From contig NZ_LMSS01000003.1 of the NCBI RefSeq assembly GCF_001429605.1, positions 310,001-374,000 of the forward strand: 64,000 bases of DNA, read 5' to 3'. The notes beneath the pieces were generated by a model. It made no database searches. It was not told where the DNA came from and worked only from the letters and a program-made list of their open reading frames with translations. This DNA comes from Phycicoccus sp. Soil802. Lineage in GTDB: Bacteria; Actinomycetota; Actinomycetes; Actinomycetales; Dermatophilaceae. The position numbers and the translations under genes are program-made. This document shows positions 3,807-21,563 of the stretch, piece by piece (position 1 is the first letter of the stretch; each line of letters begins with the position of its first letter).

Positions 3807-4939
3807 GGCTGGGATCCTGATTCAACCTCGTCTGTCGTGCTGTCCGGGCGGGCGACGAGGGCGAGTTGGGAGGAGTAGTAGGGATCCTTGAGTACGTCGT
3901 GGACGATCTCGACCGTCTTGCCGGTGCGCGGTGCGTGGACCATCCCGCCTTGCCCGTCGTAGAGGCCGACGTGGTGGTAGCTGCCGGGCGGGTCGCCGGG
4001 GGAGTGGAAGAACAGCAGGTCGCCAGCTCGAAGGTGCGATCCAGGAGGAACGTGGGGAAGGGCGGCGGCTTGGGCGTCGGTGACCCGGGGGAGTGTCCGT
4101 CCGGTGGCCTGGTGGTAGGCGTATTGGACCAGGGAGGAGCAGTCGAAGCCGACCGTTGCGCTGCCAGGGCCGAATCCGTTGCCTGGGCCGCCGATACCTC
4201 CACCGCCCCAGCTGTAGGGAGTGCCGAGAAACTGCAGGGCTGAGGCGACTGCGTTGGAGCCTTGGGTGCCGTCGCCGGTGTAGTCGGCAGTGGTGTAGCA
4301 GGTGGCGGACAGCACGGCCGGGTTGGCGACGATCTCTTGCGCGAGGGGTTCCCATCGGGCGTAGGCGTCGGGGAACGCACTGGCCTGTACCGCCTGGGCC
4401 GCCCTCGTGAGTGGCATGGCCTCGAACCCGTGGATCTGGACCAGCCCCTTCTGGCCTCCCTTGCCGCCTTCATAGAACATCCGGGCGGCGGTCTCGGGGT
4501 TGAGCCGGTCGGCGTCTGAGCCCCAGGCGGCGCGTTGCTGGAAGAGGCCGAGGCTGTCGAGGTGACCGTGGTCGAGGTTGGTGAGGCTGGACTCCTGCAG
4601 GGCGGTTGCGACGGCGATAACCCAGCCGTAGGCCGGCACGTTGAGCTGGCGGCCAACCGCGACGATGGTCTGGGCGTTGGCGAGCTGCTCCCCGCTGAGG
4701 TCCTGGGCGTTGGCGCCTGAGTTCGCAGCGAAGGCTGTGGTAGCGGTAGAGCAGTGCCCGGTGACCTGGGCCGTGCCTGAGTCCCTATCTCCGGTGGTGA
4801 ACAGCAGCAGGACGATCAGGCCCATCGCGAGGGCGCCGACCATGACCACGGGGAGGACAATGAGCCCTAGGCGGATGAGGCGACGCAAGACGACCTTGCG
4901 GGCCATCTGCGCGGCGGCTGCGACCAGCGGGGCCGGCAT
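3803..4939 (-). CDS. Conjugation-associated cell-wall hydrolase (lysozyme-like plus NlpC/P60)
   Basis: A 378-residue protein. One transmembrane segment near residues 22-45 is followed by a transglycosylase/lysozyme-like region with a candidate catalytic Glu in ALQESSLTNL and the SLGLFQQR motif. The C-terminal NlpC/P60 (C40) peptidase has catalytic Cys in GFDCSSLVQYAY and His in HHVGLYDG. Such bifunctional enzymes open peptidoglycan for Gram-positive type IV secretion systems (compare TcpG/Orf14 of ICE and pCW3 systems). The start MPAPLVAAA is 1 nt past the upstream stop; a longer in-frame start would overlap the VirB8-like gene. Confidence 0.88.
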   Translation of the reverse strand: MPAPLVAAAAQMARKVVLRRLIRLGLIVLPVVMVGALAMGLIVLLLFTTGDRDSGTAQVTGHCSTATTAFAANSGANAQDLSGEQLANAQTIVAVGRQLNVPAYGWVIAVATALQESSLTNLDHGHLDSLGLFQQRAAWGSDADRLNPETAARMFYEGGKGGQKGLVQIHGFEAMPLTRAAQAVQASAFPDAYARWEPLAQEIVANPAVLSATCYTTADYTGDGTQGSNAVASALQFLGTPYSWGGGGIGGPGNGFGPGSATVGFDCSSLVQYAYHQATGRTLPRVTDAQAAALPHVPPGSHLRAGDLLFFHSPGDPPGSYHHVGLYDGQGGMVHAPRTGKTVEIVHDVLKDPYYSSQLALVARPDSTTDEVESGSQP

Positions 4940-4940
4940 G

Positions 4941-5564
4941 TCAGTTCCCTGAACTCGCTGTGGCTGGTGACAGCGACGGGGTCGGGGCACCGGGTGGGGC
5001 GTCGTCCGGGGCGAGCGTGTCGGCCTTCCACGTGCCGCTCTGGTTGACCAGATCAACGGCGATGCGGCCCCCGTCGGTGGGCACGCTGACCGTGGCGGTG
5101 GGGCCCTTGACCGACTTCAGGGCAGCGTCACCGGTGACTCGGGTGGCTGGGACTTGGGCTGGGTCAGTTCCTGTGAGGGAGGAAATGAGGGATGGGGTTC
5201 CCCAGGGTTTCATGCCGGTCAGCCACGGCGTCTCCCCCTGGGTGGTGGTCGACCAGGCAGTGACGAAGGCGGTGGCCACCGCGACCGGGGAGCCAGTCGA
5301 GACCTTGGTTGGCGTGGTTGAACCCGGGCTTGCTGTAACCGATTCGGCTGTCGTCGGGTTGCTGGGCGTGGCCGTCGCGGCGGGCACGGTGGGCGCGGAC
5401 GCGGTCAGAGGTGGCCGCGGGGCGGACGCGGCCGAGGCTCCCACTTCGTTGGTCAGGCGACCGAGGGCCGCGAGCAGGACGAGAGCCAGAACGGCCGTCA
5501 CAGTCAGGTTGCGCCATGACCAAAGCGGCCATCGCACGGCGCGGCCGACTCCTCCGGCATTCAT
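4941..5564 (-). CDS. Membrane-anchored VirB8/TcpC-like conjugation protein
   Basis: A 207-residue protein with a short cytoplasmic N-terminus, one transmembrane segment (about residues 20-37), a Thr/Ser/Pro-rich linker and a compact C-terminal domain containing AVATAFVTAWST and WxADTL. This layout, together with its place between the VirB6-like and cell-wall-hydrolase genes, fits the NTF2-like VirB8/TcpC scaffold proteins of Gram-positive conjugation systems. The fold assignment is an inference; no strict motif is present. It overlaps the upstream gene by 4 nt. Confidence 0.6.
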   Translation of the reverse strand: MNAGGVGRAVRWPLWSWRNLTVTAVLALVLLAALGRLTNEVGASAASAPRPPLTASAPTVPAATATPSNPTTAESVTASPGSTTPTKVSTGSPVAVATAFVTAWSTTTQGETPWLTGMKPWGTPSLISSLTGTDPAQVPATRVTGDAALKSVKGPTATVSVPTDGGRIAVDLVNQSGTWKADTLAPDDAPPGAPTPSLSPATASSGN

Positions 5565-7576
5565 TCCTCGGCTCGTTTCTGCAGGCTCAGAACCGTCTGC
5601 TTGGTGTCGGGGTCATAGAGGCGTGGTCCGATACCGTCACGCCGGAACTGCGTGTGCGAGTCGTGGGCGAGGTTCGGGATCTCCCGGGCGTCCGCTGGGA
5701 TCTGAGGAACGATCCGTCCGCTGATCGGGGTCTCTCCGCTTGTGGCTCGGACGTTCACAGGATCGGGTCTCGGCTGCGTCTGCTGGACTTCACCAGCGAG
5801 GGCGTATGCCGGGCCCTCTCGATCGGCGTCCGCCTCGGCAGAATCGGGGGCCAAGACGGGGTCTTGGTTCGCGGTGACGGAGTGCGCGGGCCTGGGTGCC
5901 TCAACCGAGCTGAGTTGAAGGTGTTGAGGCGCCGGCAGGGCTCTCTCGGAATCGGCGACGGTGGGGAAGTAGGCGGGTCGTCCGAAGGCTTCGGCGGGAA
6001 GCCCGGTGTGTCGGTAACGACGATGGACACCGTTGTCCTGCGCGGCTGCCTTCTCGTCGCCATCGGCCTTCTTGTTCTGGTCGGCATCCTCGTTGGCTGC
6101 GTCGACGCCGTGTTGGGTGGCCAGTCGCCTGGAGGTGTAGTTCCAGATCTCACGCCCGCCGCGCTTGGCCCAGCGTGGCCCTCCGGAGTGACCGAGGATG
6201 TTGGTGAACGACAGCAGTGGGAACAGCACGATGAACGCGGCCACCGTCGCCACCATGCACAACACGATGCCCAGGACGCCCATGCCGGTCGTGGTGGCGC
6301 GGGACAGGACTGCGGAGATGATCGTGGCGTGGACCGCCGACCCGGCCGAGAACGCGACCACGTTGACCACGGCGGCACCGCCCATGCTGAACACGCGCCG
6401 CACGATCGATGCCATCGGGGCCATGACCCCAACCACGGCGATGGCCGGGAACAGCATGACCAGGAACCGCAGCATGACCAAGCCGGCAAAGAGGAAGATG
6501 TCGGCGGCTAGCCGGAAAAGCAGGCTGAAAGTTGACCCGAGTGCGACCATCACACCGGTTCCTGCGCGACCACCGGCCTTGCCCTGCAGGTAGCCGTACG
6601 CGACCGGGTCCTGCTTCTCGATCTCGGCTGCGGTCTTCTTCCAGTTCTCGGCCTTCTTCTCGGCGATCCGCTTGCCCGCATCAGGGTCCTGCTCTGCCTG
6701 GCGGGCTTCGGCCCAGGTGAAGGCGCTGGCCTTGAAGAGGTCTGGGCCCCACTTCTTGGCCGCGGGGGAGTCGGTGGAGCCGAGCTCGCCGCGCAGCCAG
6801 TTGTCGTAGAGGACGCGGTCGACCACCAGGGCGCCCTGGGCGCGTGCGGGGTCGGACGAGGCGGGCAGGTTGGTCAGGCCGCTGACGCCGCTGCTGATCG
6901 CCGAGACGCTCGAGGTGACTGTGCTGTCGAAGAATGTGGCGACCCGGGTCGGGTACTGGCCAATGCCGGCGACGATCGCTGTCACCAGCAGTGCCCAGGC
7001 GGCGGCCGAGGTCACTGACGACAGTCGTCCGCTCATCGAGTAGAAGAGCAGCAAGGCACCGACTCCGACCAGTGCTGTGGCGCCCCAAGGGGACCAGATC
7101 GAGTCGTGCAGTCGCTGCGTCACGCCGGCAACGACGTCGTCGAGCGGGGCCATGTACTCCTCGGGATGGGCAACCTTGTTGTGCAGCCCGTTGGTGGCTG
7201 CGGCGCCCCACGTCGCGGTCGATATCAGGAAGTTGCCGGTCGCGGTGTCGATACTGGCGTCGACGTCGCGCAGGCCACCACCGCAGCCGAGGTCGTAGGT
7301 GTGCCACCCGAGTCCGGCGTACCCGTATTGCTCGTACACGCTGGTCGAGGGGTGGTCGGCGAACGGGTCGCGCGGTTCCGGTGGCGTCTTGGGTCCTTCG
7401 TCGAGGAACCCGGTTATCCCGGACCCGGGCAGCTGCGCGGTGGGTGCGTCCTTGCAGTCCGGCACGCCTGGGATGGTCGGTGTCGCGGAGGCTGCCCCGG
7501 CAACCCCCACACAGACCCCGGCGAGGATCGCGCCGATGGCCAGCATGCGGCATACGACCCCCCGCAGCGCAGCCAT
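5561..7576 (-). CDS. Polytopic conjugal transfer membrane protein (VirB6/TrbL-like)
   Basis: A 671-residue protein. A signal peptide (ILAGVCVGVAGAASATP) is followed by an extracellular region with two cysteines, then at least seven membrane segments between about residues 155 and 460 and a long hydrophilic, proline-rich C-terminal tail. The architecture is typical of VirB6/TrbL-type channel subunits in actinobacterial ICEs, where sequence conservation is low. The ATG at 7576 lies just past the VirB4 stop; a longer reading frame exists but would overlap VirB4 with biased composition. The gene is in a tight operon, overlapping the next gene by 4 nt. Confidence 0.75.
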   Translation of the reverse strand: MAALRGVVCRMLAIGAILAGVCVGVAGAASATPTIPGVPDCKDAPTAQLPGSGITGFLDEGPKTPPEPRDPFADHPSTSVYEQYGYAGLGWHTYDLGCGGGLRDVDASIDTATGNFLISTATWGAAATNGLHNKVAHPEEYMAPLDDVVAGVTQRLHDSIWSPWGATALVGVGALLLFYSMSGRLSSVTSAAAWALLVTAIVAGIGQYPTRVATFFDSTVTSSVSAISSGVSGLTNLPASSDPARAQGALVVDRVLYDNWLRGELGSTDSPAAKKWGPDLFKASAFTWAEARQAEQDPDAGKRIAEKKAENWKKTAAEIEKQDPVAYGYLQGKAGGRAGTGVMVALGSTFSLLFRLAADIFLFAGLVMLRFLVMLFPAIAVVGVMAPMASIVRRVFSMGGAAVVNVVAFSAGSAVHATIISAVLSRATTTGMGVLGIVLCMVATVAAFIVLFPLLSFTNILGHSGGPRWAKRGGREIWNYTSRRLATQHGVDAANEDADQNKKADGDEKAAAQDNGVHRRYRHTGLPAEAFGRPAYFPTVADSERALPAPQHLQLSSVEAPRPAHSVTANQDPVLAPDSAEADADREGPAYALAGEVQQTQPRPDPVNVRATSGETPISGRIVPQIPADAREIPNLAHDSHTQFRRDGIGPRLYDPDTKQTVLSLQKRAEE

Positions 7577-7577
7577 C

Positions 7578-10121
7578 TCAGGCACTCTCCCTCTCGGGCT
7601 CGTTCGCGGATGTCGTTGGGGTGGCGGTGAGCTCAGGGCGGGCCACCCGGTTCCGGGCCTGATCGGGCTGGGCGGTGGTGTTGAGGGCGGCCAGCAGGTG
7701 CGGGTGGGCGGACAGGTCCATGCGGATTCGTTCGATGCCGCCGGTGCCGTCGCTGAAGATGAACTCGCGCGACCCTCGTCGGCCCTCACGGGTCGGGCGG
7801 GACAGGGTGCCGAAGATCGACTCGTACCCCATCCCGTCGCGGATGCCGGGCAGGAACCGCAGGGCGTCGGTCTGGGCGTCCTCACCGGTGAGGCGGCCGA
7901 TGAACGCGGCCGAGATCAGGTTGGCAAGGTCCAGCTTGAGCAGGTCGGCGGGGTTCTGCGAGGCCATCAGCACGCGAGTGTTGTGCTTGCGGGAGTCGCG
8001 GGCGGCCCGGTCGATGAACCGGCGGCCGGTGCTGAAGGTGGACAGTGCCCACGCCTCGTCGATGAAGATTCCCTTGCGGGCGTTGACATCCCCGAGGTAC
8101 ATGCCGCGTTGGGTGAGCCACGCGGCGAGGTAGAGCACGCACATCGACAGTCGCTCGTCGAGGTCCTCACTGTTGGCGGTGGACTCGTCCGGCAGGGCAA
8201 GCCCGCGCAGGCTGTAGACGGTCAACAGCGGGTCTTCCCGCCCGTAGTCCTGTTGGTACCCGGACGGGAAAATCAACCGGCCGTGGCTGGTTTTGGCAGC
8301 CTCGGTGAGGAAGTCCGCCATGTACCCGGCGTGGCGGCGCAGGTCTGGATCTCCGTCCAGGCGCGTCAGTGCGTCGACGACCTCGTGGGTGGATGCGGTG
8401 TGCCTGGCCGACACCGCACCGACGGCACGCATCAAGGCCACCTCGGTCAGCATGTGGTCCTGCAGCTGACGCGGAAGCATTGCCCGCAGCACCGACGAGG
8501 TGAGCAGACGGCGGGTGTCCTCGGCCTGGTTCTGTGCGGTGCGCCAGTCCAGCTCGGAGTCGTAGTGCTCACGGCGTGGTTCTGCGATGACGCGGTAGGT
8601 GCACAGCGCGCCAGGTGGTGCGTCGAGCAGGTCGATCGCCTGGGACACCTCCGCGAGCTCGGGCAGACGGCACAACGCAGTCAGTCGACCGGAAGGGTCG
8701 AGCACGGTCCACGGGACGCCCTGCATGACGGTGCGGTAGATGATGTTCCCGCCGGCGGTGGACTTGCCGCCGCCCAGACCCGCGCACAGGACCGCGAGAC
8801 CGGACTCCTCTCGGGTCTCGGTGCTCTCCCACGGCTCCCACGTGACCACGCGTGCGCTGGTGCCGGACGTCTCGCCGAGGTGGATCCCGACCCGGTCGCC
8901 CACCTTTGCGGTGGCGGCGGGGACGGCTGCGGCGAGGGTGGTCACCGGCATACGCCGCTTGTATGCCGTGGATGCCAGCTTCTCGCCGGGGATGAACTCG
9001 CGGGCGATGGCGTACTGGTCCGCAGGGCGGGCAATGGTGATCTGGGGCGTGTAGAGCTTGCGCAACAGGCTGGCCCGCTCGAGTGCCTCCTCCTCCGATG
9101 CTCCGGAGACCGCGATGCGGTACCACCCGGTGGTACGGGTCGACAGCCCGGACAGGCCCATCGAGATCTCGTCCTCAACGCCCAGGGCCTTGTCAGCCTG
9201 ACGGTCCAGTGCGCCGGGGGCGGGCTCACGGTGCTCGACCTCGTAGTGGTCCTTCTGGGCGCGGATCTTCTGGATGTTGCGACGCATCGCCATCCCCACC
9301 TTGGCGGAGTCCTCGATCGTGACCCGGGCGGACCACTCGACCGGGAAGCCGAGCTGGTCGGTGCGCTGCATCCACGGAATGCCGGCCGGGATCTCCAGAT
9401 CGGTCATCCGGCCCACGGACAGGACGCACACATGCCGTTCGACGCGCTGGTCCTCATTCTCACCGATAACGCGCAGAGTGCGGGCGTACGGTTCGGCGAA
9501 CCATTTCACGTGGTCAGTGAACTCGTGCAGGTCCTCCTCCTCCCAGCGCCCGTCGTCGACAGCCCCGAGTGTCAGAGGTGCGGGCAGGCCCAGTGAGCAG
9601 GACCGGTGCAGGAGCCATTCCAGCTCCCGCGCGCTGACCGGTGCACCGTCCATTCCCGGGGCGGCCATGATCTCGTCGGTGACGCGGATCTCCTTGGACA
9701 GGGCCGAGACCTCTCGGTCGGAGAACGTGCCAGCCAGCCCGCCGAGCGCCTTGTAGAGACCCTTGCGTGCGGGTATCTCGACGCCGACGTAGACCTCCTT
9801 GTCGGCCATGCTGCGACCCGACAGGTGCTGCTGGTCCGTCAGGAGGTGGTTGCGCCACCCGGGCAGAGGGGCCGGGGCGTTCTCGTCGTGCGCGGCGGCC
9901 CACCGGCTGACCGGGTAGGGCCTGGTCGTGACCCGGATGTGCAGCTGACGCTTGACCAGTTGGGCGTACGCATCCGCACCGTCGATGATCAGTTGCTCCC
10001 GCACGCTGTCCGGCCGGAACGACCATCCCTGCGGATCGAGGAGGTACCAGGCCACGATCCGGTCGGCGGTCACGGTGCAATGGCCGCTGATCCGGCGCAG
10101 CGCAATACCGGGCTTGCTCAT
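7578..10121 (-). CDS. VirB4-family conjugation ATPase
   Basis: An 847-residue ATPase. The Walker A motif GLGGGKST lies near residue 446 and the Walker B motif GIFIDEAW near residue 680; the N-terminal half is the usual variable VirB4 region. Later motifs such as RVLMASQNPADL fit the sensor region of VirB4/TraC ATPases. It would power pilus-less DNA transfer at the membrane. It overlaps the small membrane protein upstream by 4 nt and is followed by the VirB6-like gene after 1 nt, so the order VirB2/3/4/6/8/hydrolase matches Gram-positive type IV secretion modules. Confidence 0.9.
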   Translation of the reverse strand: MSKPGIALRRISGHCTVTADRIVAWYLLDPQGWSFRPDSVREQLIIDGADAYAQLVKRQLHIRVTTRPYPVSRWAAAHDENAPAPLPGWRNHLLTDQQHLSGRSMADKEVYVGVEIPARKGLYKALGGLAGTFSDREVSALSKEIRVTDEIMAAPGMDGAPVSARELEWLLHRSCSLGLPAPLTLGAVDDGRWEEEDLHEFTDHVKWFAEPYARTLRVIGENEDQRVERHVCVLSVGRMTDLEIPAGIPWMQRTDQLGFPVEWSARVTIEDSAKVGMAMRRNIQKIRAQKDHYEVEHREPAPGALDRQADKALGVEDEISMGLSGLSTRTTGWYRIAVSGASEEEALERASLLRKLYTPQITIARPADQYAIAREFIPGEKLASTAYKRRMPVTTLAAAVPAATAKVGDRVGIHLGETSGTSARVVTWEPWESTETREESGLAVLCAGLGGGKSTAGGNIIYRTVMQGVPWTVLDPSGRLTALCRLPELAEVSQAIDLLDAPPGALCTYRVIAEPRREHYDSELDWRTAQNQAEDTRRLLTSSVLRAMLPRQLQDHMLTEVALMRAVGAVSARHTASTHEVVDALTRLDGDPDLRRHAGYMADFLTEAAKTSHGRLIFPSGYQQDYGREDPLLTVYSLRGLALPDESTANSEDLDERLSMCVLYLAAWLTQRGMYLGDVNARKGIFIDEAWALSTFSTGRRFIDRAARDSRKHNTRVLMASQNPADLLKLDLANLISAAFIGRLTGEDAQTDALRFLPGIRDGMGYESIFGTLSRPTREGRRGSREFIFSDGTGGIERIRMDLSAHPHLLAALNTTAQPDQARNRVARPELTATPTTSANEPERESA

Positions 10122-11819: not shown

Positions 11820-11969
11820 CTGTGCCGCTTTAGGAGTCGCATCGGCGCCTGTGAGGTCTGGGGATGCGCCCCGAGTCTGTGCGTGGATGCTTGTCATTCA
11901 CTGATCGGCGTAGCATCTCCACCACCGATCGGGGGCGCCCCCAGCGCCCTAGTGGTCACCGGTGCGACG

Positions 11970-13031
11970 ATGGGTCTTGTGTCCCTGTCGACTCACCCTT
12001 TGCCAGTCGTGGCCTACTTCGACATGAACGTTTGGGTCGAGATGGCCCGCGGTCAACGGATGCAGGATGTCGAGTGGAACCGGGCGATCACTGCGCTGCA
12101 TGTGGCAGTCACGGAAGCCCGGCTCGCCGTTGCTTTGAGCGCCGCCCACTATCTCGAGCTCTGGCATCGACGAGACATGACTTCTCGAGAGGCGGTCGGT
12201 GCCGTGATGCGGGATGTCACTGGTTACGCAGCGCTCTCGCCGATCCAGCGGGTTCGACGCTTGGAGATCGAAGCACTCGTCGACCGACACATGGGCGGTA
12301 GCCGCCGCGTCAGTACCCAGGATCTGCTCGGACAGGGAGTCGTCCATGCCTTCGACTCGCCCGACGGCCGATTTCGTTTCGTTGCTTCGATCGAGACATC
12401 TGAACGACGTGAGGGTGAGCCCGCTGCCGCGCCTGACGTCATGACTGACTTACGTGCGCGACCGGCGCTTTGGGAGTGGGTGAATCTCGTCGGGACGCAA
12501 GACTTCATCGACGGCGATTGGGTCGATCGAACCCCAGAGCACCGGCTTGGGGACCGTTACGCGCAACAGCAGCTTCGGCTCAGGCAGCGGGTGCGGGACG
12601 AGCCGCTCGTCCGGGCGCGGCTTCGCGACCACATCCTCGTCGAGGAAGTCGTAGATGTGACTGACGAGATCAATCGAGTCTGCGTGGAGCGCGATGTCGA
12701 CCCCCACGGGCTGTTTTTCAAGGCACACGCTGACTCGTCCCCTGAAGCCGTTCGGCGTTTCGTCGAGGAGCTTCCTAGCGTGGATGCGAGTGTCTCGCTT
12801 CGTTGGTGGAAGCACAAAGACTTGGGGATGAACTGGGAGCAGCACGACAAGGTCGACCTCATGTCGCTGGCCGTTGCCGCACCATATGCCGACGTGGTCG
12901 TAACGGAACGTCGCTGGGAACACCTGCTGCGGGCATCAGGCCTCGCTAAGCGTCATAAGACAATCGTCGGTCGGGGAGTCGACGGCGTGTGGGCCGCCTT
13001 GGAGCTTGCCGGCACTGCCCGCTCGGAATAG
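11970..13031 (+). CDS. PIN-like domain protein
   Basis: A 353-residue protein. It opens with VVAYFDMNVWVEMARG, the first acidic residue of a PIN-type active site, has an internal Glu in AAHYLELWHRRD and later KVDLMSLAVAAPYADVVVTERRWEHLL, where two further Asp residues fall at expected positions. PIN-fold proteins are metal-dependent RNases, often toxins or defence effectors. The start was placed at MGLVSLSTHP, just before the first strand; an upstream frame of 29 residues has no domain. It converges on the Dcm methylase with 5 nt between the stop codons. Confidence 0.65.
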   Translation: MGLVSLSTHPLPVVAYFDMNVWVEMARGQRMQDVEWNRAITALHVAVTEARLAVALSAAHYLELWHRRDMTSREAVGAVMRDVTGYAALSPIQRVRRLEIEALVDRHMGGSRRVSTQDLLGQGVVHAFDSPDGRFRFVASIETSERREGEPAAAPDVMTDLRARPALWEWVNLVGTQDFIDGDWVDRTPEHRLGDRYAQQQLRLRQRVRDEPLVRARLRDHILVEEVVDVTDEINRVCVERDVDPHGLFFKAHADSSPEAVRRFVEELPSVDASVSLRWWKHKDLGMNWEQHDKVDLMSLAVAAPYADVVVTERRWEHLLRASGLAKRHKTIVGRGVDGVWAALELAGTARSE

Positions 13032-13036
13032 GCGTC

Positions 13037-14206
13037 TCACAACCCAATGTGATCGCGGATCCGCTGCGCGAGCAGTTGCGCGACTGGGACCGCGACGGCG
13101 TTCCCGATAGCCCCCATGCTGCGCGAGCGGGCGACTGGGAACTCGTACCAATCCGGGAAGCCTTGAATGCGAGCGGACTCGCGCACGGTGAGGTACCGCA
13201 AGGAGTTGTCATCGAAGCGGATCATCGCCTCGCCGCCGCTGACTCCATGGACACCGGCCTTGATCGTCTTCGCGGGCCAGTCGAACGGACTTCCGGAGTG
13301 TTTCGGATACGCGCGTGCGCCAGGGATTCCTCGGTGGCTTGTGAAGCGTTCTGAGTCCACCCCATCAACCGGTTCGGGAAGCCCGACAATCGCGTCGCGG
13401 ATCGTCTGCCACCGCTTCTGCTCGGGTCGACCTCGCTCCTTGAGTTCTCGCTTGCGCTCCTCCAAGCCGTCAGGGGCGATGGGCATCGCCATGCCGTGAC
13501 TCGTCCAGTAGTCGCCGGTGACCCATTGGTCGTAAAGGAGAGCGTCACGGCTGAACTCGCCGTCGATCTTGCCTGGCCAGGTATCGGCGTTCGGAAGGTC
13601 CGATCGGATCCCGATCAGAAAAACTCGGCGCCGGTTCTGCGGCAGGCCGAAGTCAGCGGCGTCGATCAGATGCTGGGTGACGCGGTAGCACAAGGAACGT
13701 GGCCGAGCCTTCTTGATCCGAGAATCGTGCTCTGCCCAGAATTCATCCTCGTTGGGGGTAACCGTCGGCTTCTCGAGCTGATGCCGGATGTAGGAGAAGT
13801 ACGGCGAGAACGACGGCCTCGTGAGCCCCGGGACATTCTCAAAGATCACGAACTTCGGACGCAGCTTCCGCACAACGTCCAATGCCGCCGGAAACATGTT
13901 CCGATCGTCCTCATCGCCTGCGTGCACACCTGCCAGCGAGAACGGCTGGCACGGGGGCCCGCCCGCTACTAGGTCGACCTGCCCTTCCATGAGGTGGGTT
14001 TGATTGAGCCAGATGCGGACGTCCTTCTCGTGCACATCGTCCTTGTTCCAGAGGTTCGGGTGGAGCTCCGCGTTGTGTCGAAGGATCTTCGCCGCGGGCT
14101 TGTACCACTCGACCAGCGCAAGATGTTCGAACTCGGCATTGCGAGTCCCGAGGGCCATGCCGCCGCCGCCCGCAAACAGCTCCACGGAAGTCATCAAGTT
14201 GCTCAT
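13037..14206 (-). CDS. DNA cytosine-5 methyltransferase (Dcm family)
   Basis: A 389-residue enzyme with the C5-methylase motifs in order: I (ELFAGGGGMALG), IV with catalytic Cys (GGPPCQPFSLAG), VI (FENVPGL), VIII (QNRRRVFLIG), IX (RESARIQGFPD) and X (GAIGNAVAVPVAQ). A target-recognition region lies between VIII and IX. It should methylate cytosine at a specific site and protect host DNA. It is the last gene of a five-gene operon, overlapping Vsr by 4 nt. The recognition sequence cannot be predicted here. Confidence 0.95.
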   Translation of the reverse strand: MSNLMTSVELFAGGGGMALGTRNAEFEHLALVEWYKPAAKILRHNAELHPNLWNKDDVHEKDVRIWLNQTHLMEGQVDLVAGGPPCQPFSLAGVHAGDEDDRNMFPAALDVVRKLRPKFVIFENVPGLTRPSFSPYFSYIRHQLEKPTVTPNEDEFWAEHDSRIKKARPRSLCYRVTQHLIDAADFGLPQNRRRVFLIGIRSDLPNADTWPGKIDGEFSRDALLYDQWVTGDYWTSHGMAMPIAPDGLEERKRELKERGRPEQKRWQTIRDAIVGLPEPVDGVDSERFTSHRGIPGARAYPKHSGSPFDWPAKTIKAGVHGVSGGEAMIRFDDNSLRYLTVRESARIQGFPDWYEFPVARSRSMGAIGNAVAVPVAQLLAQRIRDHIGL

Positions 14207-14646
14207 CGGCCGATGTCCTCCCGCCGACCGCGAACGGCAAGTTCGACCCGGTCCGCGGCTGAGACGACATCACGCTCGACGTCGGACGCCCATACGCGTA
14301 TCACCTTCCAGCCTTCGCTAGTCAGCGCCTGGGTTACCTGCGCGTCTCGCCGCATGTTGCGGCTGATCTTCTTCATCCAAAAGTCTGAGTTTGCGTGGCG
14401 AAACTCCTCCTCGAAGGACTTGTAGCCACGTGTCCGCCATCCGTTGCCGTGCCAACGGTCGCCATCCACGAAGCAAGCGACCCGGGCTGGCCCGAACACG
14501 ATGTCGGGCTTGCCGAACAGATTCGTTGACACTCGGAAGCGAAGTCCTCTCTTGTGCAGTTCACGGCGCAGGGCCATTTCGGGTCGAGTCCCGGTATGCC
14601 TTACAGCCGACATGATTTTGGATGTCACCTGTGGGTCACGCTTCAC
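14203..14646 (-). CDS. Very short patch repair endonuclease (Vsr)
   Basis: A 147-residue protein with the Vsr signature: SAVRHTGTRPE near the N-terminus, catalytic Asp in FGKPDIVFG and the second motif FVDGDRWHG. In classical Vsr the second motif is HGCFWH; here His and Cys are Asp, as in the Vsr-like group often written VDGDFWHG, so one zinc ligand seems to be missing. Vsr nicks T:G mismatches that arise from 5-methylcytosine deamination. In this operon it may either repair such damage or act as the restriction nuclease. It overlaps both neighbours by 4 nt. Confidence 0.92.
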   Translation of the reverse strand: MKRDPQVTSKIMSAVRHTGTRPEMALRRELHKRGLRFRVSTNLFGKPDIVFGPARVACFVDGDRWHGNGWRTRGYKSFEEEFRHANSDFWMKKISRNMRRDAQVTQALTSEGWKVIRVWASDVERDVVSAADRVELAVRGRREDIGR

Positions 14647-15269
14647 GTCTGGTCGCCGCCCTTCGCCTGACGAGGGGCCACGCGGTAGTACTTGATGGTG
14701 ATAGAGCAGCGGTCAGCGATCCGCTTGTGGTGGGCCTTCTCTCCGCGCGTGACCGGGTGATCCAACGTCTCCAAGACCACGATGCATCCCTCGTGGCTCG
14801 GGTTGCTCGCGAGGTGGTTGATCGTCGCCCAAACGAGGTGGCGGATGTTCTTCGCCGCATCCCACACGACGTAGGTCGTCGCGGCGCCAATCTTGGCGAG
14901 ACAGTGAAAGGGTTTGACCCCTTTGCTGTCGTCGACCACCGCGGCGTCGGACCCGAGGGCGTGCTGGACGAGTTGCTCAGCGGTTGGCCCGACGGAGGTG
15001 CCGAACCTGGCGTACCTCCCGGCTCCGAGCTGAGCCCGTCCATACTCCTTCATCGGGCCGTCCTTGATCCATGAGCGGGAGTTCTCAATGCTCATGTACC
15101 TGGTGAGGACGCCGCCGATCTCGGGATCGGTCACCCAATCGTCGTACTGCGCGGTCCGGTTGTTGGCCGGCAGGTGCTCCCAGTCGAGCCGATCCGCGGC
15201 CGCATATAGAACCTTGACCACACCGTCGATCTGATCCTTCGGCACGCGGCGGGACTCTGCGGCGCTCAT
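14643..15269 (-). CDS. Unrecognised component of the Dcm/Vsr/helicase/GHKL operon
   Basis: A 208-residue soluble protein, Trp- and His-containing, with no signal peptide or membrane segment. The middle region holds GTSVGPTAEQLVQHALGSDAAVVDDSKG and the C-terminal part HLVWATINHLASN, then ETLDHPVTRGEKAHHKRIADRCSI (given here in part). No nuclease motif of PD-(D/E)xK, HNH or PLD type is clear. It overlaps the helicase stop and the Vsr start by 4 nt each, so it is an integral gene of the defence operon. Its function is unknown. Confidence 0.75.
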   Translation of the reverse strand: MSAAESRRVPKDQIDGVVKVLYAAADRLDWEHLPANNRTAQYDDWVTDPEIGGVLTRYMSIENSRSWIKDGPMKEYGRAQLGAGRYARFGTSVGPTAEQLVQHALGSDAAVVDDSKGVKPFHCLAKIGAATTYVVWDAAKNIRHLVWATINHLASNPSHEGCIVVLETLDHPVTRGEKAHHKRIADRCSITIKYYRVAPRQAKGGDQT

Positions 15270-16927
15270 GATGCCGGGAGATCTGGGTCGAGGAACTGGA
15301 GACGTGCGTCATCGTTCGCCGTCTCAAGATCAGCGGCGTCAAGAATCCACTGATCGAGGAGCGACTCGGCCCGAGCGTCGCTGAAGCTTATCTCCGGCTG
15401 AGGCACCTCGGGAACTACCTCGACCTCGTCCGCATTGGTCTGCCTGCGCAGGTTGAGCAGGGCCGCGACACGCCGTAGGTCGCTGACGAAGTCGAGCGCA
15501 ATCACCTTGTGCTTGCCCTCGCGGAGCCTCAGGCCACGCCCCAACTGCTGGACAAATATCCTGCGACTGTGGGTGACACGGGCGAAGCAGATGATGTTCA
15601 CATCGGGCACGTCGACGCCCTCATTCAGGATGTCGACAGCAGTCAAGATCGGGACGCGACCGGATCGGAAGTCGAGAAGGCGAAGCTGTCGATCGCGAAC
15701 CTTCAAGCCCTCGTGGATTGCCTGAGTGTTGGACCACTCTGGCGTTCGGCGCATCAACTCCGCCATGCGTTCAGCGTGCTCCTTCGTCTGGCAAAACACG
15801 ATGGCGCGCGGGTCAAGCGTCGACCGCCAGGCTGCGCTCAGCTCGTCAAGGATCGCCTCGTCTCGCTGCGGCAGGAACAACTTGGAATTGAGCTCCTTCA
15901 TTGAGTAGGAGCGCCGTGACACGTCCTTGACGACATCCCAGTCGATGTTGTCAAGGAACAGCCGGTAGTCGACCTGGGCAAGGTAGCCGAGGCGCATTCC
16001 CTCGCCGATGCCCAACTTGTAGGAGGCAGGCCCGAAATGGCTCTCGATGTCATACTTGTCGCCGCGCCACGGCGTCGCGGTGACTCCGAACTGGCTTGAG
16101 TCGCTCAACTCGGCCAGCAGCTGTCCGTACTGACCGTCCTCTCCCACATGGTGGGTCTCATCCACCATGACCACGGAGGGCCGGTAACCCGCTAACGCCA
16201 CGTTGAGGGCACTGGCAACGGTCGCGAAGGTAACTCCACGCAGGTCCTTGGGCTTCTCGTCGCCGGTAAGGACCTGGGTCCTTACGGTCTTCGGCAGGTG
16301 CCTCCAGAGCGCGCGCTCGAGTTGCGCGACGAGGTCCTTGGTGTGAGCAGCCACCAGGATGTCGGCTTTCGGGTCCAACGCGAGGTGGTGTGCGATCACC
16401 TCTCCGCCGACGACTGTCTTTCCCAAGCCGGTGGCGAGCACCAGAAGCGCGCGACCCTCGGTGTCGAGGTCCTCAATCAACGAGGCAACGGCTTGGCTCT
16501 GGTAGTCCCGCAGCCGGATTCGCACTGGCTGGTCGGCAGCTTGCTCCCACAGCTGCAGCAGGTCGGCGCCGGTCCAGAAGTCGATGCGCTGGCCGGTGCG
16601 AGCTAGGACCTGAGCGCGCGCCGCAGCGTCTCGGCTGGGACGAACGTTGGTAACGACAACGCCGCGGTCCGCGCGGTAGTGATCCATCGCGTTGGAGACC
16701 TCGTCAACCGCACTCTTCGGAACGCTGCCCTGCTTCTGCCACTTGGCCTGGAACACCCACTTCTGCCCTGCGATCGTGGCGAGCAGATCGCCACCTTCGT
16801 CGCCAGAGCCGTCGATGTTCGAGATGTCGCTGTACCGCAGAAGGCCAAGGAGCCGCTCGACTTGCGTGGTGAACCGACGCTCACCCCCAAGTATGAGGTG
16901 CCGCGGATCAACGAAGGACTCGTTCAC
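15266..16927 (-). CDS. SF2 DEAD/DEAH-type helicase with N-terminal Mrr-like nuclease domain
   Basis: A 553-residue protein. Residues 1-150 look like a PD-(D/E)xK restriction domain of the Mrr type, with GGD at 45-47 and QAK at 60-62. Then follow helicase motifs: Walker A ATGLGKT, DEAH-type box VDETHH, motif III VTATPWR and motif VI QQLGRGLRLREGK. The enzyme should use ATP to move on or unwind DNA and may cleave it. It lies between the GHKL ATPase and the unknown 208-residue protein with 4-nt overlaps on both sides. Its length is ordinary for this architecture. Confidence 0.92.
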   Translation of the reverse strand: MNESFVDPRHLILGGERRFTTQVERLLGLLRYSDISNIDGSGDEGGDLLATIAGQKWVFQAKWQKQGSVPKSAVDEVSNAMDHYRADRGVVVTNVRPSRDAAARAQVLARTGQRIDFWTGADLLQLWEQAADQPVRIRLRDYQSQAVASLIEDLDTEGRALLVLATGLGKTVVGGEVIAHHLALDPKADILVAAHTKDLVAQLERALWRHLPKTVRTQVLTGDEKPKDLRGVTFATVASALNVALAGYRPSVVMVDETHHVGEDGQYGQLLAELSDSSQFGVTATPWRGDKYDIESHFGPASYKLGIGEGMRLGYLAQVDYRLFLDNIDWDVVKDVSRRSYSMKELNSKLFLPQRDEAILDELSAAWRSTLDPRAIVFCQTKEHAERMAELMRRTPEWSNTQAIHEGLKVRDRQLRLLDFRSGRVPILTAVDILNEGVDVPDVNIICFARVTHSRRIFVQQLGRGLRLREGKHKVIALDFVSDLRRVAALLNLRRQTNADEVEVVPEVPQPEISFSDARAESLLDQWILDAADLETANDDARLQFLDPDLPAS

Positions 16928-19254
16928 GACGAGTCCTCGGGTGCGTCGGCCAACTCTGCTTCCAGCAGGCGGCAGCTCAACCGACCGCGGTTGAGTTCAT
17001 CGGGTCGCCGCCTTGTCTGGTGCTCCGCCAGCTGGCCGGCATCGTTCAGGTATCCGATCAAACGGTTGACCGTGAGCGCGCGGGCGTGGCTGTCCGTGAA
17101 CGTCTGGTAGGGCGCTCGGAACACTCGGCCGTCGAGGAACTCGCCAGGACGCTGCTGGATGAGACGGGAGAGGGCAGCAGAAGACGCGTACAGAATCCAG
17201 GCTCCGCTTTCTCGAGCCTCCTGCCAATCGGCCTCCATGCCCTCCTGAGCAAACCGTTGCTCGGCGGCTGCCTGCTCTGGCTCCATCACGTAGCCCCAGA
17301 ACCCCTCCGAGTTGCCCGCGATCACTGGCCGCATTGTGCGCCGGACGCGGTCAAGCAAAGCGTGAGCCGCACCGCCGAGCGCCGTCGGGGTCACTTTCTG
17401 GTCGGGAAGGCAACGATCCATCAGGTCAGCGATGATCGAGCTGAGGGCCTGAGTACTGCCCCGACGATCTCGGATGTGCTCGGCCACCCCGAGGACGGCG
17501 TACTCCCGCGGGTCCGCGCCAAAGTCAGTGAAGAGACTGTGGCCGAAGTCCACGAACACGTGAACGTCGGTTCCGCGCTGTTGTTGCACGTACACGGGCA
17601 CCCGCTGACCGTTTGTGTCCGCGACCTCGGTGCCGTTCAGGCCGTAGACGGTCACCTTCAGGGCATTTCCGAAGCCGGGCAGCGCGTACTCGCCGGAGAT
17701 GTCGTGGAGGACCTCTCCCTGCTGGCGGTATCGGTCCTGCTTCTGGTCCTCGGTCTCACGTGGCGGCGTCGGGTCCCCTGGATGTAGCTGCGCGTCAGTG
17801 GGCTCGGGAATGTCCAGCCGGAATCGAGCGTCGTCGCCGCCGTCTCCTGGGTCGCTCGACTCTGGAGGCACGATGACCTTCGGCTCGTCGTGCTGCTTCG
17901 CCTGCTCGTACCAGATGTGGTCATCCTGATACTCAGCGTCACCTTTGCGGAACAACTTCGCCCACTCACGGGCCTTCTCGTGGATCGCATGGTCGCCATC
18001 TCCGGGGACCAGATACTTGAGACCTGGGTCCAACCGTCGGTAGCCGGTGAAGAGACGACCGATCGGGGATTCGTTGGGCGGATAGCCGGCGTCGCGCGCG
18101 ATATTCGGACGGACAGGACCGTCCCCGCGCAGCGTGCGAACAACCTGCTTCCACTCGATCGTGTTGTACTCAAATGCGTTCTTTTGATAGTTGACCCGTA
18201 CGTGATCGATATGGATCTCGCCAACGATCCGGCCCTCGTTGGGCACCTCGATCGGGTACTCGCTTTCCGGGCGAGCGCCGAGTTCGTTGGGGTCCTCCCA
18301 AGCGAAGATCCGCACGTCACGAACGAGGATCTTGCGACCGTTGCGCAGGAAGTCGATGCCGAAGTCGGACTTGTGGGAGTAGCGCTGGATGCCGAGCCAA
18401 CCCGTGATGCGGCGCTCGCGCTCCTCCAACTCGGTGCTGCCGCACTCCTCGCACTCGCGGACAGTGAGATCCTGCCACCGGCCGCAGTCGTGGCAGGCAT
18501 TCAGCGACGGCAACTCCTTATCGATCTCGATATATGCCGGGTACTTGACGCCCCGCTGCACCACCGAGCGGTCCTTATTCCAGATGCACGGCAGCAGCGG
18601 CTGGACGGCTTTGCCGTCGACCCGGAGGGAGAAGTCACGCTCCCGTAGGAGATACGAGTACACGTCCCCGAGCAGGTCCCGGATCCTGGTCTGTTGGCGC
18701 GACAGCAGATCGTGCTGCTCCTGCTTCAGATCGCTGACGATGACCTGGGTCCCGTGCTCAGCCGTGTCATCCTTCGGCTCCCGGATAACCGGCACGACGA
18801 AGTTGTCCTGCGTGGCCATCTTCCGCAGGTCCAGGGTGACACTCACCCACTCGGAGTCGCCGGCCCGGGTCGTGCGAACCTGGGTCGAGTTGCCGAGTCG
18901 AGCCGTCGCGATGTTGAAGCCCATGCCGAACAGTCCGAGCTTGCCGTAGCGGGCGTTGCTCGACCACCCGGCGGACAGTGCCATGTTGAGGTGTTCGAGG
19001 CTCATACCCCGGCCGTTGTCGCTGATCCACACCTGGGCGTCCCGGTGGTCGGAATTCCGGCTGGGAAGGCTGATCGTGACCGTCGGCGTGTCGTCCTCCG
19101 CGGGATCCGAGAGGAAGTCATCGAAGGCGTTGTCGATCAACTCGGCGAGACACTGCCACGGCGCGAACTCGATGTCACCGAGCACCGCCAACAGCCGCGG
19201 ATGCGGCGTGACGTCGATGCTCTCCCCGCCGATGGAGACTTCCTCATCGACCAC
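16924..19254 (-). CDS. GHKL ATPase of the MutL/MORC-like type
   Basis: A 776-residue protein. The Bergerat ATP-binding fold shows the N box ELIDNAFDD (Glu38, Asn42), the G1 box SDNGRGMS and the G2 box GLFGMGFNIA. A zinc ribbon with two CxxC pairs (CHDC and CEEC) follows at about residues 253-272. The C-terminal part, from about 560, is unassigned. A GTG start preceded by AGGG was chosen; the upstream in-frame extension has no domain. Comparative work links MORC/MutL-like GHKL ATPases with Vsr, Dcm and SF2 helicases in restriction systems, which is the context here. It is the first gene of the operon. Confidence 0.88.
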   Translation of the reverse strand: MVDEEVSIGGESIDVTPHPRLLAVLGDIEFAPWQCLAELIDNAFDDFLSDPAEDDTPTVTISLPSRNSDHRDAQVWISDNGRGMSLEHLNMALSAGWSSNARYGKLGLFGMGFNIATARLGNSTQVRTTRAGDSEWVSVTLDLRKMATQDNFVVPVIREPKDDTAEHGTQVIVSDLKQEQHDLLSRQQTRIRDLLGDVYSYLLRERDFSLRVDGKAVQPLLPCIWNKDRSVVQRGVKYPAYIEIDKELPSLNACHDCGRWQDLTVRECEECGSTELEERERRITGWLGIQRYSHKSDFGIDFLRNGRKILVRDVRIFAWEDPNELGARPESEYPIEVPNEGRIVGEIHIDHVRVNYQKNAFEYNTIEWKQVVRTLRGDGPVRPNIARDAGYPPNESPIGRLFTGYRRLDPGLKYLVPGDGDHAIHEKAREWAKLFRKGDAEYQDDHIWYEQAKQHDEPKVIVPPESSDPGDGGDDARFRLDIPEPTDAQLHPGDPTPPRETEDQKQDRYRQQGEVLHDISGEYALPGFGNALKVTVYGLNGTEVADTNGQRVPVYVQQQRGTDVHVFVDFGHSLFTDFGADPREYAVLGVAEHIRDRRGSTQALSSIIADLMDRCLPDQKVTPTALGGAAHALLDRVRRTMRPVIAGNSEGFWGYVMEPEQAAAEQRFAQEGMEADWQEARESGAWILYASSAALSRLIQQRPGEFLDGRVFRAPYQTFTDSHARALTVNRLIGYLNDAGQLAEHQTRRRPDELNRGRLSCRLLEAELADAPEDSS

Positions 19255-19617: not shown

Positions 19618-20778
19618 CTAGTTCTCGTCTTCGAGGTCGTCGCTCCCTGGGCTCTCGTTTTCCCCGACAGCATCTAGGGCAGCGAGCTCGTCCTGATTCT
19701 GATACCCCTTGAGGTATGCCGTTAGGATCTCTGCTCGGCGGCTAAGCGCTCCTCCGTCGTTGGAGGACTGCACGAAGAGGTTGTACTCACGAAGTCGGTT
19801 GTTTCCGGGCCGGGTGAACGCAGGATCATCCTCGTCCATCCGCGAGGCGAGTCGACGCAGCTCTTCAAAACGTTGCAGGCGCTCCCGCGAAGCGCTCGCG
19901 ATGAGCTGCGAGTCCCGGAAGGCGATGTAGTAGACGACGAGCGTCCCGACCGAGCGGAGAAGGGGGTCGTCATCTATGAAGAGCCCGGCCATACGATCCA
20001 GTACGCCAGCGGCGGTCGCTTGGTATCTGGCCATCTCAGCTGCACTAATCTGTGGCGGGTTCCCGCGGCTTGCTAGGAACAAGTCCATCAGCGTGGCGGC
20101 CTTGATGTCAGAGATGCGGCCGTTTCTCGTATCGATCTGATGCTCGATCGCCAAGAATTTCGCGGCCAGCTCCCGGTGCTTGTATCGAGAGGCCTTGATC
20201 GGCGACCGAGCAGAGAGCAGGCTGTGCGTAGCCAGAGCGTTGGCGGCATCCCTGGTCGCGCCCGACACGGAATTTCGCCGTTCGGCGTGATTCAGGGCGG
20301 TGGCGGCGTTGAGCCGTTGGAACAGTTCTTCGATTAAGTCAATGCTGTCCGAGCTAACGCCGACGATGGGTAGCTCGAAGTCGAGGATCCGCTGAGCCAA
20401 CCCCGGGTAGGCGGACTGCAGTTCCGCAAAGGTGAGATTGGCGGCCGAAACGCTCCCGTCCTCGAAGTACTCGAAGTCGCTCGGGAGTTGCAACTCATTA
20501 TCGAGGAACTCTCCGACAGCTTCGAGGCGTTGCTTGCCGTCTAGTACCGCGTACTGGATTGTGCGTCCTTGTTCAGTGGTCCGGCGACTTGTTGCCCGCT
20601 CGAAGTACAGTTTGGGGAGGTCGAATCCGTTGACGATCGAGTCGATCAACCGGCTCCGGGTTTCGCGCGTCCACACGCCACCTTCCCGCTGGTAGGCCGG
20701 TTCAAAGTCGATGGCCGGTCGCATGTGGGCATAACGTGCGATCGTAATCTCGCCCAGCGGCTCCGTGCGGATCTTCAC
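19618..20778 (-). CDS. DUF262 domain protein without the DUF1524 nuclease
   Basis: A 386-residue protein with DUF262 hallmarks: FEPAYQREGGVWTRETRSRLIDSI at the N-terminus and the DGKQR motif in YAVLDGKQRLEAVGEFL, a ParB/sulfiredoxin-like nucleotide-binding signature. GmrSD-type type IV restriction enzymes join DUF262 to a DUF1524 HNH nuclease; the C-terminal half here shows no HNH motif and ends in an acidic tail. It starts at a GTG that overlaps the FRG gene stop by 4 nt, so the two form an operon. A role in phage defence is inferred from family and location. Confidence 0.85.
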   Translation of the reverse strand: MKIRTEPLGEITIARYAHMRPAIDFEPAYQREGGVWTRETRSRLIDSIVNGFDLPKLYFERATSRRTTEQGRTIQYAVLDGKQRLEAVGEFLDNELQLPSDFEYFEDGSVSAANLTFAELQSAYPGLAQRILDFELPIVGVSSDSIDLIEELFQRLNAATALNHAERRNSVSGATRDAANALATHSLLSARSPIKASRYKHRELAAKFLAIEHQIDTRNGRISDIKAATLMDLFLASRGNPPQISAAEMARYQATAAGVLDRMAGLFIDDDPLLRSVGTLVVYYIAFRDSQLIASASRERLQRFEELRRLASRMDEDDPAFTRPGNNRLREYNLFVQSSNDGGALSRRAEILTAYLKGYQNQDELAALDAVGENESPGSDDLEDEN

Positions 20779-21563
20779 AGCGAACCCTTGTGAGTGGCCT
20801 TGATTCGTCCGGCGATTCGATCGAGGTCGCGGTAGATGGTCACTTCTGTGAGACCTAAGGTTTCAAGTTGCTCCCGAAGAGCCTGCTTCTTTCCCGACGG
20901 GATCACAAAGCGCCGAAGGGACCTCGCACTCGCCAGCTGCGGAAGCGGATCCCCGTCTGCCGGCCGTTGGCTCACGGTGAAGGTTCCCGTCTGAAAACGG
21001 ATTCGATCAAATGACATCGGCGCGATAACTGCCCGCGGTCTCATCCGCTGGGAGGCATCATGGCCTGGCCGGTAGTGGTCGAGGGCCGAGTGCCCGTCCC
21101 TCAGCAGCACGGGATGGCCTCCCCCTGCGTCTCCTGCTTCCTCGTTGAGATCGCGGGGATCGATCATGAGCAGCTCACCCTCCGCCTCTGCCTCGTCGGG
21201 CTTGGCCTCCCCACCGCGCTCGCAGGCGAAGTACAGTCCGACCAGAGGGCTCTGGGACCAATCGAGTAGGCGAGTCGGAAGCTGGTGGTGCTGCGCGAAC
21301 GTGATCCAGCCCCATTCGTCGAACGAGTACGGCTGGCCGGCAGTCGCTGCCTCTTGGCGAAAGCGATCAAGCATAGATTGCTCGCTGTCCCGGTGACCCG
21401 GGCTTCGAAACACGGAAGGTTGGAGCAAGTACCCGCTGTCACGGTGGCCGCGATACCAGTACTCGCGGCCATCGGCGGTGATGGCTTGCAGAGCCACTAA
21501 TAGATCTTGCACACTCCCAATCTCGGGAGGTGCAGGCTGCGCATCGCCAGTCCCTTCAGTCAC
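20775..21563 (-). CDS. FRG domain protein
   Basis: A 262-residue protein. The FRG domain spans about residues 30-190 with EYWYRGHRDSGY, then the conserved AQHHQLPTRLLDWSQSPLVG and the strand LYFACE. FRG domains are named for a conserved F/Y-R-G motif and occur in many stress or defence loci; their activity is not established. It starts at GTG and overlaps the downstream DUF262 gene by 4 nt, suggesting a two-component system. It could be an effector whose activity is controlled by the DUF262 protein. Confidence 0.85.
   Translation of the reverse strand: MTEGTGDAQPAPPEIGSVQDLLVALQAITADGREYWYRGHRDSGYLLQPSVFRSPGHRDSEQSMLDRFRQEAATAGQPYSFDEWGWITFAQHHQLPTRLLDWSQSPLVGLYFACERGGEAKPDEAEAEGELLMIDPRDLNEEAGDAGGGHPVLLRDGHSALDHYRPGHDASQRMRPRAVIAPMSFDRIRFQTGTFTVSQRPADGDPLPQLASARSLRRFVIPSGKKQALREQLETLGLTEVTIYRDLDRIAGRIKATHKGSL

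Follow-up and report, generated by a model that had tools for sequence, protein, structure and literature searches.

A MORC-like ATPase operon of Phycicoccus sp. Soil802 as a predicted ATP-dependent restriction-modification system for CCGCGG-class sites

Introduction

What would a MORC-like ATPase do in a bacterial operon that also encodes a helicase-nuclease, a Vsr-family endonuclease and a cytosine methylase? The question is raised by a 64,000-nucleotide stretch of Phycicoccus sp. Soil802 (contig NZ_LMSS01000003.1, positions 310,001 to 374,000, the whole of which we call the window), where five genes occupy positions 13037–19254 of the minus strand. The operon class is not new, as it was predicted from gene neighbourhoods by Iyer, Abhiman and Aravind in 2008; they defined MORC/paraMORC restriction operons that combine the ATPase with an SF2 helicase, a cytosine methylase and Vsr, and suggested that these systems loop DNA (PMC2292703). 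A sequence-only reading of the locus had pointed to such a computational link between prokaryotic MORC/MutL-like ATPases and Vsr, Dcm and helicases, and that precedent is real (PMC2292703). From sequence comparison we lean towards the window operon being an ATP-dependent restriction-modification (R-M) system for unmethylated CCGCGG-class sites (CCGCGG or YCGCGR). This rests on a conserved three-gene core, on a methylase of one recognition type, and on loci that carry the core with or without an Eco29kI-family endonuclease.

Operon anatomy

All five open reading frames (ORFs) and their four junctions were confirmed, each junction being a 4-nt overlap (GTGA, ATGA, GTGA, ATGA). The GHKL, Mrr/SF2 helicase, Vsr and Dcm identities of the sequence-only reading are backed by Pfam (HATPase_c_3 3e-11, Mrr_cat 2e-15, ResIII 4e-22, Helicase_C 6e-17, Vsr 6e-19, DNA_methylase 7e-56), and the 208-residue gene indeed has no family. 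The same reading called the genes translationally fused, which they are not: they overlap, and translational coupling is the most that can be expected. The genes and the segments discussed below, all on the minus strand, are as follows.

16924–19254, minus: gene 1, GHKL (MORC-like) ATPase, 776 amino acids (aa), GTG start, HATPase_c_3
18439–18495, minus: zinc-ribbon cysteines of the ATPase, aa 254–272, four Cys columns
18328–18360, minus: S5-domain motif of the ATPase, GIDFLRNGRKI, to be compared with the MORC signature GhXhhpXXRhl
15266–16927, minus: gene 2, Mrr-type nuclease and SF2 (ResIII/Rad25-like) helicase, 553 aa, GTG start, Mrr_cat, ResIII and Helicase_C
16739–16801, minus: Mrr nuclease motif region of the helicase (D...QAK, Lys62)
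14643–15269, minus: gene 3, 208 aa, predicted pseudo-nuclease whose N-terminal domain is helical, ATG start, no family
15018–15071, minus: gene 3 conserved motif WIKDxPMKEYxRAxxGxG, from column conservation in 56 sequences
14859–14915, minus: gene 3 candidate equivalent of the PD...ExK hairpin, catalytic acids absent, equivalence judged from predicted strands
14203–14646, minus: gene 4, Vsr-family endonuclease, 147 aa, GTG start, Pfam Vsr, NCBIfam TIGR00632 above cut-off
13037–14206, minus: gene 5, C5-cytosine methyltransferase (Dcm) of Eco29kI type, 389 aa, ATG start, Pfam DNA_methylase
13217–13336, minus: Dcm target-recognition segment, aa 291–330, common to M.Eco29kI and the presumed M.DrdVII

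A fixed core and a movable cassette

Relatives were collected with a genome-collection scan that used an alignment of four ATPases as query. The resulting set of 92 loci with the ATPase comprises the best 80 of 254 genome-collection relatives, three plasmid loci, eight virus-collection loci and the window. Most are from Actinomycetota, and the rest include Ruegeria and Deinococcus plasmids, delta-proteobacterial/myxococcal contigs and a spirochaete-endosymbiont contig; Nocardioides sp. J54 and N. gansuensis have ATPases that share 96% identity with the window's. The helicase is present at all 92 loci, and ATPase, helicase and 208-residue gene follow in this order on the same strand at 86 of them. 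At four of the six loci without the 208-residue gene (L035, L050, L083, L091) the sequence breaks off no more than 140 bases from the helicase ORF, and the other two (L038, L092) have room for the gene. With helicase matches below 100 bits and Dcm matches below 50 bits left out of the architecture table, Dcm was found at 87 loci and Vsr at 84. L019, L035, L081 and L091 lack Dcm and are cut on one side by the contig end; the fifth locus without it, L092, is not cut. L092 (7486–12143) has a divergent ATPase-helicase pair (ATPase 30% identity) followed by an unrelated 191-aa ORF, and no Dcm, Vsr or 208-residue gene was found at the locus.

The distance between the methylase and the ATPase-helicase pair is at most 1.5 kb at 69/87 loci, at most 3 kb at 81/87 and 3.2–6.8 kb at six, and the Vsr-Dcm pair stands ahead of or after the core on either strand. 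Pairwise distances across the 83 five-gene loci correlate at 0.88–0.92 among ATPase, helicase and 208-residue protein and at 0.86 between Vsr and Dcm, with 0.52–0.59 across the two sets. All of the genes share one species tree, so the gap between about 0.9 and about 0.55 favours exchange of the Vsr-Dcm cassette. Divided into two clusters, the Dcm sequences give groups of 26 and 57 loci with a mean between-cluster identity of 0.41. Deinococcus L004 and L038 retain the core without Vsr. Judged by these sequences, the operon is made of two co-evolving parts, a fixed three-gene core and a movable Vsr-Dcm cassette. The proposal that the genes form one conserved multi-gene restriction-type system is upheld by the core order, by the intact motifs and by a Dcm of constant recognition type. 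Placing Vsr in a single five-gene unit holds for this operon, but Vsr is separable and travels with Dcm rather than with the ATPase machine. Some Vsr-family ORFs are long (about 300 codons, for example L013 6679–7569 and L016 8647–9555), with at least about 130 codons ahead of the Vsr domain and uncertain starts; this extra N-terminal part has no Pfam family.

4-nt overlaps are ordinary in operons. Across the family they occur at 55/92 ATPase-helicase, 39/86 helicase-208, 12/22 208-Vsr and 9/21 Vsr-Dcm junctions, counted for matches above 60 bits with the start codon taken nearest to the overlap position, a choice that favours this overlap. As the junctions vary across the family, we rejected the uniform overlaps of the window as a sign of function.

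The 208-residue family is rare, being present in 1/11 genomes of the genus and 2/396 genomes sampled from the phylum, where one of the two matches is weak and partial. A search of 50,697 phage records with the ATPase gave no match at E 1e-5. A viral-contig scan with the 208-residue protein alone found nothing, and one with a helicase profile found the ATPase in 8/80 kept loci.

An apparently active, MORC-like core

ATPase residues E38, D41, N42, D79, G83, L106, G107 and G110–N114 are each kept in all 92 sequences, G81 in 91, and neighbouring motif positions in 90–91. Each zinc-ribbon Cys column is conserved in 90 or 91/92, the first Cys missing in Deinococcus L004. The MORC family has the S5 signature GhXhhpXXRhl (PMC2292703), and the window motif fits it at 10/11 positions; the G and both R residues are present in 92/92, while position 10 is Lys in 89/92 and so not hydrophobic. 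MORC3 and MORC4 are the nearest solved structures, both by sequence profile and by fold. On this evidence from sequence and predicted fold the ATPase is MORC-like, MORC being the closest among GHKL proteins. PADLOC (2023) gave no match for the ATPase up to E 0.1.

The Mrr D...D...QxK motif, Walker A, DExH, SAT and helicase motifs I–III are found in 92/92 helicases and motif VI in 90–91/92, and profile matches of this protein in the PDB include RadD and XPB/RAD25. In Vsr, both motif residues (Asp and His) are kept in 83/83 aligned sequences. Two residues singled out by the sequence-only reading, GHKL Glu38 and Lys62 of the Mrr QxK, are invariant (92/92 each). With its ATP, helicase and nuclease motifs intact, the core machine looks active.

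Methylase specificity and the Eco29kI link

Dcm motifs PC, ENV and QxRxR, together with the key residues of the recognition segment, are invariant in all 87 core-linked methylases. Compared with the window Dcm, the recognition segment is 0.54–0.65 identical in the eight core-linked methylases listed (of 86), 0.60–0.70 identical in ten Eco29kI-linked methylases, and 0.05–0.23 identical in 30 same-class C5 methylases taken as controls. Catalytic-region identity is 0.39–0.48 for the core-linked and Eco29kI-linked methylases together (0.42–0.48 for the latter alone), and six controls with equally close catalytic regions (0.41–0.45; these look like one subfamily) have recognition segments only 0.10–0.19 identical. 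By these comparisons the core-linked Dcm is of one constant recognition type, matching the segment of M.Eco29kI. The sequence-only reading had not foreseen a connection to Eco29kI.

The plasmid relatives of the window Dcm include the pECO29 methylase. A plasmid survey matched 2701 records; among the 40 listed, three are L002–L004, ten others were examined from the better rows and 27 were left. An Eco29kI-family GIY-YIG endonuclease gene adjoins Dcm in 10/10 of the examined operons, seven of these genes being annotated as such. L201 matches the Pfam family at E 1.5e-59, and L199 (30.0 bits) and L204 (23.1 bits) fall below its cut-off of 30.8. Residues Y49, Y76, R104, H108 and E142 are present in 11/11 aligned endonucleases (L003 included), and N154 in 9/11.

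According to passages in two papers on this system, R.Eco29kI recognizes CCGCGG and M.Eco29kI methylates the second C (PMC1952068, PMC3039593). A second clue comes from Deinococcus wulumuqiensis 479, where no C5 methylase other than the core-linked Dcm was found on pDrdI, and the sole 5-methylcytosine methylase listed for this plasmid is M.DrdVII, with the site YCGCGR (PMC6430315). As there is one candidate on each side, we presume the core-linked Dcm of pDrdI to be M.DrdVII. YCGCGR was methylated at 3,601/5,878 sites in 'Deinococcus radiodurans', the former name of 479, in a passage that does not give the strain (PMC8112702). The predicted site of the window system is thus CCGCGG or the relaxed YCGCGR.

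Loci with the endonuclease, the core, or both

The loci were searched with an Eco29kI-family profile built from 11 sequences. The result weighs against the core being a simple substitute for the endonuclease, as 41/92 core loci carry an Eco29kI-family gene (45 copies). Of these copies, 36 have Dcm as nearest gene of the set and lie within 700 bp of it, and the active site (Y, Y, R, H, E) is complete in 43. A plain replacement of Eco29kI by the core is therefore wrong. No such gene was found at 31 core loci with at least 7 kb on either side, the window included; 20 further loci without a match are shorter on one side. Given the 41 loci with the gene and the 31 roomy ones without, the core would be either a second arm or the sole one. 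Dcm is kept at 30 of the 31 roomy loci (the exception is L092), so the methylase is retained where the core is the sole restriction arm seen. The profile search found no adjacent Eco29kI-family GIY-YIG endonuclease among the window's ORFs of at least 60 aa, and a PF09517 search of the whole 4.29-Mb genome also found none; this last search was silent in all control genomes as well and cannot prove absence.

Conversely, no core gene was found in the examined regions of the ten Eco29kI-type plasmid operons, and three of these (L199, L200, L204) are Vsr-Dcm-Eco29kI operons. Three kinds of operon thus exist, carrying only the endonuclease, only the core, or both, and the methylase is of one kind throughout. 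The simplest account of these three states is a pair of restriction arms directed at a single class of site.

Some individual loci are worth recording here. One of the ten plasmid records, from Pseudosulfitobacter (L207, 641–15252), carries Dcm, an Eco29kI-family gene, ATPase, helicase, a 208-aa relative and a PIN-like gene, with the core some kilobases beyond the Eco29kI-type operon and IS66, IS21 and IS3 genes interspersed. L049, L056, L014 and L080 each have two Eco29kI-family matches within one core locus. The sole match at L066 and at L070 is short, with an active-site residue changed or missing.

The 208-residue protein

The window's gene 3 matched no Pfam family, no NCBIfam model and no solved-structure sequence up to E 1. 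Across the family, six Pfam families were matched at E 0.02–0.1, each by one or two of the 56 members, and the only PADLOC match of gene 3 (NsnC, E 0.006, over 50 residues) was not used. Conservation is nevertheless strong: K69 and K74 are present in 56/56 sequences, R78 in 55 and W67 in 53, and in the hairpin region K119 in 55, P120 in 56 and W136 in 52. The predicted fold of the C-terminal half appears to resemble that of PD-(D/E)xK nucleases, with the mismatch endonuclease EndoMS/NucS as nearest fold. Foldseek gave no match below E 0.001 in the PDB, and NAD synthetase ranked first there. Three viral-model fold matches at E <0.001 had root-mean-square deviations of 10.8–14.6 and were not used. 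No column within residues 90–199 reaches 70% D/E across the 56 sequences, so that the catalytic D...(D/E)xK is absent. Gene 3 is predicted to encode a pseudo-nuclease, a nuclease-like fold that lost its catalytic acids. Since this predicted fold lacks the catalytic acids yet keeps invariant basic and aromatic residues, we consider the 208-residue protein at least as good a candidate reader of methylation or of the site as the ATPase.

At three loci a second copy of the 208-residue domain is fused to a PIN-like domain (L024 14624–16240, L025 14590–16224, L067 5512–7242). Near the core of L018, L028 and L085 is a PIN_8 protein whose C-terminal half differs.

Proposed mechanism

In the system we propose, Dcm would methylate host CCGCGG-class sites and Vsr would repair the T:G mismatches that arise from deaminated methylated cytosine, with the three-gene core as the restriction arm. 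The MORC-like GHKL ATPase may clamp DNA in an ATP-driven manner, the 208-residue protein may either connect the parts or contribute to recognition of the site or of its methylation, and the Mrr-helicase would translocate along DNA and cut where the mark is missing. Three points here are inferred from the sequences: restriction of unmethylated DNA by the core, the choice of subunit as site reader, and cleavage by the Mrr domain. Many relatives would have the core and an Eco29kI-family endonuclease share one methylase. In the window the core is the only restriction arm found, and would be the lone ATP-dependent arm of the two.

A broader version can be offered only tentatively. The MORC ATPase, helicase-nuclease and dead endonuclease may form an ATP-driven module that shares methylase and site with Eco29kI systems, in which the endonuclease is optional. 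The dead endonuclease might then read the methylation state and, fused to PIN in some lineages, add a further, possibly RNA-cutting, line.

Alternative explanations

A variant of the restriction reading, possible but in our view doubtful, is that the GHKL ATPase recognizes the site and the 208-residue protein is purely structural. ATPase residues 36–297 match NF050001, the 'BbrUII/HgiDII family restriction enzyme' (E 5e-5, 21.9 bits), which would suit this variant and is a sub-threshold hint that GHKL proteins may serve as restriction enzymes in the BbrUII/HgiDII family too; M.HgiDII is a GTCGAC C5 methylase according to a passage in PMC5867850, and the fold search barely covered the C-terminal half of the ATPase. 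The match is however far under the family cut-off of 550, the 208-residue family keeps its invariant basic and aromatic residues despite the lost acids, and its PIN fusion at three loci is as expected of a reader or adaptor. Next best after two-arm restriction, though rather unlikely, is that the core merely helps Eco29kI-type R-M: it would read no site itself and would follow the type II enzyme, for instance unwinding and breaking down phage DNA already cut, or rescuing failed restriction. The frequency, proximity to Dcm and intact active sites of the Eco29kI-family genes fit a helper. On such a reading the 30 core loci with Dcm, with room and without the enzyme would have to be remnants or serve another partner, and this sits poorly with the 31 roomy loci lacking the gene, the window among them, with core motifs conserved across all 92 loci whether or not the enzyme is there, and with the whole-genome search, within its limit stated above.

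Repair and type IV-like defence are weaker again. We think it improbable that the operon is a methylcytosine repair machine, in which GHKL as MutL and the helicase as UvrD would serve very-short-patch repair by Vsr at deaminated Dcm sites. MutL and Vsr do cooperate in E. coli (PMC2292703), Vsr is present at 84/92 core loci, and the nearest fold of the 208-residue protein is a mismatch endonuclease. Against this, the core persists without Vsr in Deinococcus L004 and L038, Vsr-Dcm-Eco29kI operons occur without the core in the examined region, core distances track one another far better than they track Vsr and Dcm, and the helicase has its own Mrr nuclease motif in 92/92. Just as little credence is due to a type IV-like defence, where the Mrr-helicase core would attack otherwise-modified foreign DNA and Dcm would mark self or be a passenger. 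Mrr domains are known from modification-dependent restriction, and among PADLOC models a type IV one matches the helicase part best, but a type IV enzyme would need no methylase, and Dcm with a constant recognition segment is present at 87/92 core loci. That separate defence genes clustered by chance in a defence island is very improbable for the operon as a whole: a defence-like gene pair does adjoin it (19618–21563), but gene order is kept across several phyla, motifs are invariant and distances are correlated. Chance is thus unlikely for the core, and possible for the Vsr-Dcm cassette at the six loci with Dcm more than 3 kb away.

Flanking genes

The adjoining pair (19618–21563, minus strand) consists of a DUF262/GmrSD_N and an FRG-domain gene with a 4-nt overlap, directly upstream of the operon, and matches NsnA (1e-25) and PDC-S15 (4e-48) in PADLOC. 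We rejected it as part of the core because it lies directly upstream of the ATPase only in L005 and L006; it is found elsewhere in L012 and L061. On the other side, a 382-aa protein (11883–13031, plus strand) is convergent with Dcm and has no Pfam family; of the loci searched, only L008 and L009 contain relatives, and in our own reading its stretch YFDMNVW resembles a PIN-type start. Further along (3806–10121, minus strand) are an NlpC/P60 protein, an AAA_10 ATPase, which we take to be VirB4-like, and other genes without family, possibly part of a conjugative element. For the island boundary, one flanking ABC-transporter gene compared with a same-genus genome gave 89 ABC matches and no syntenic answer.

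Comparison with known systems

The window operon fits the first type of MORC R-M system of Iyer et al., with a Rad25-like SF2 helicase, a restriction-endonuclease-fold nuclease, Dcm and Vsr. The operons they described likewise have a GHKL and S5 ATPase beside a Rad25/type III-kind SF2 helicase fused to a restriction-endonuclease-fold domain, along with a cytosine methylase and Vsr, and are sporadic and laterally mobile (PMC2292703). Unlike their main text, we describe a third subunit with a predicted, catalytically dead nuclease fold, the link to Eco29kI and CCGCGG, and the PIN fusions; their figures and supplement lay outside this comparison, and the operon may be drawn there. Eco29kI R-M systems share the Dcm family and recognition segment, tight packing, Vsr in some relatives and an endonuclease family that is also present at 41/92 core loci. 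They differ in restricting by a single GIY-YIG endonuclease, where the window has a three-gene core and no detected GIY-YIG. The Eco29kI endonuclease is ATP-independent.

NgoAVII and CglI resemble the window operon in combining a methylase with a separate DEAD-family helicase/ATPase needed for cleavage (PMC4267653); the passages of that paper considered here name no GHKL ATPase and place the nuclease in a separate R protein. VcSduA/paraMORC3, a Shedu protein with GHKL, also joins a GHKL ATPase to a PD-(D/E)xK nuclease in phage defence, and in the relevant passages changes to the ATPase and to the nuclease each abolish activity (PMC12137116). As described there, VcSduA is a single chain including the nuclease, whereas the window has nuclease and helicase in a second protein beside a methylase. 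MORC3 and MORC4 offer the nearest ATPase structures but are chromatin proteins with no operon helicase or methylase partner. The literature searched held no experimental work on a MORC-helicase-Dcm operon. Within that literature, figures and supplements being outside it, the dead-nuclease subunit, the specificity link and the PIN fusions appear new.

Significance

Animals and plants use MORC ATPases for transposon silencing, according to abstracts of the literature consulted. The operon family would give their bacterial relatives a predicted site (CCGCGG/YCGCGR), a methylase of one type and a new subunit family, and the loci with and without an Eco29kI-family enzyme are natural controls. A role of prokaryotic MORC in methylation state thereby becomes testable and, if the tentative broader version above is correct, the module would provide a direct prokaryotic model for the reading of DNA methylation by MORC.

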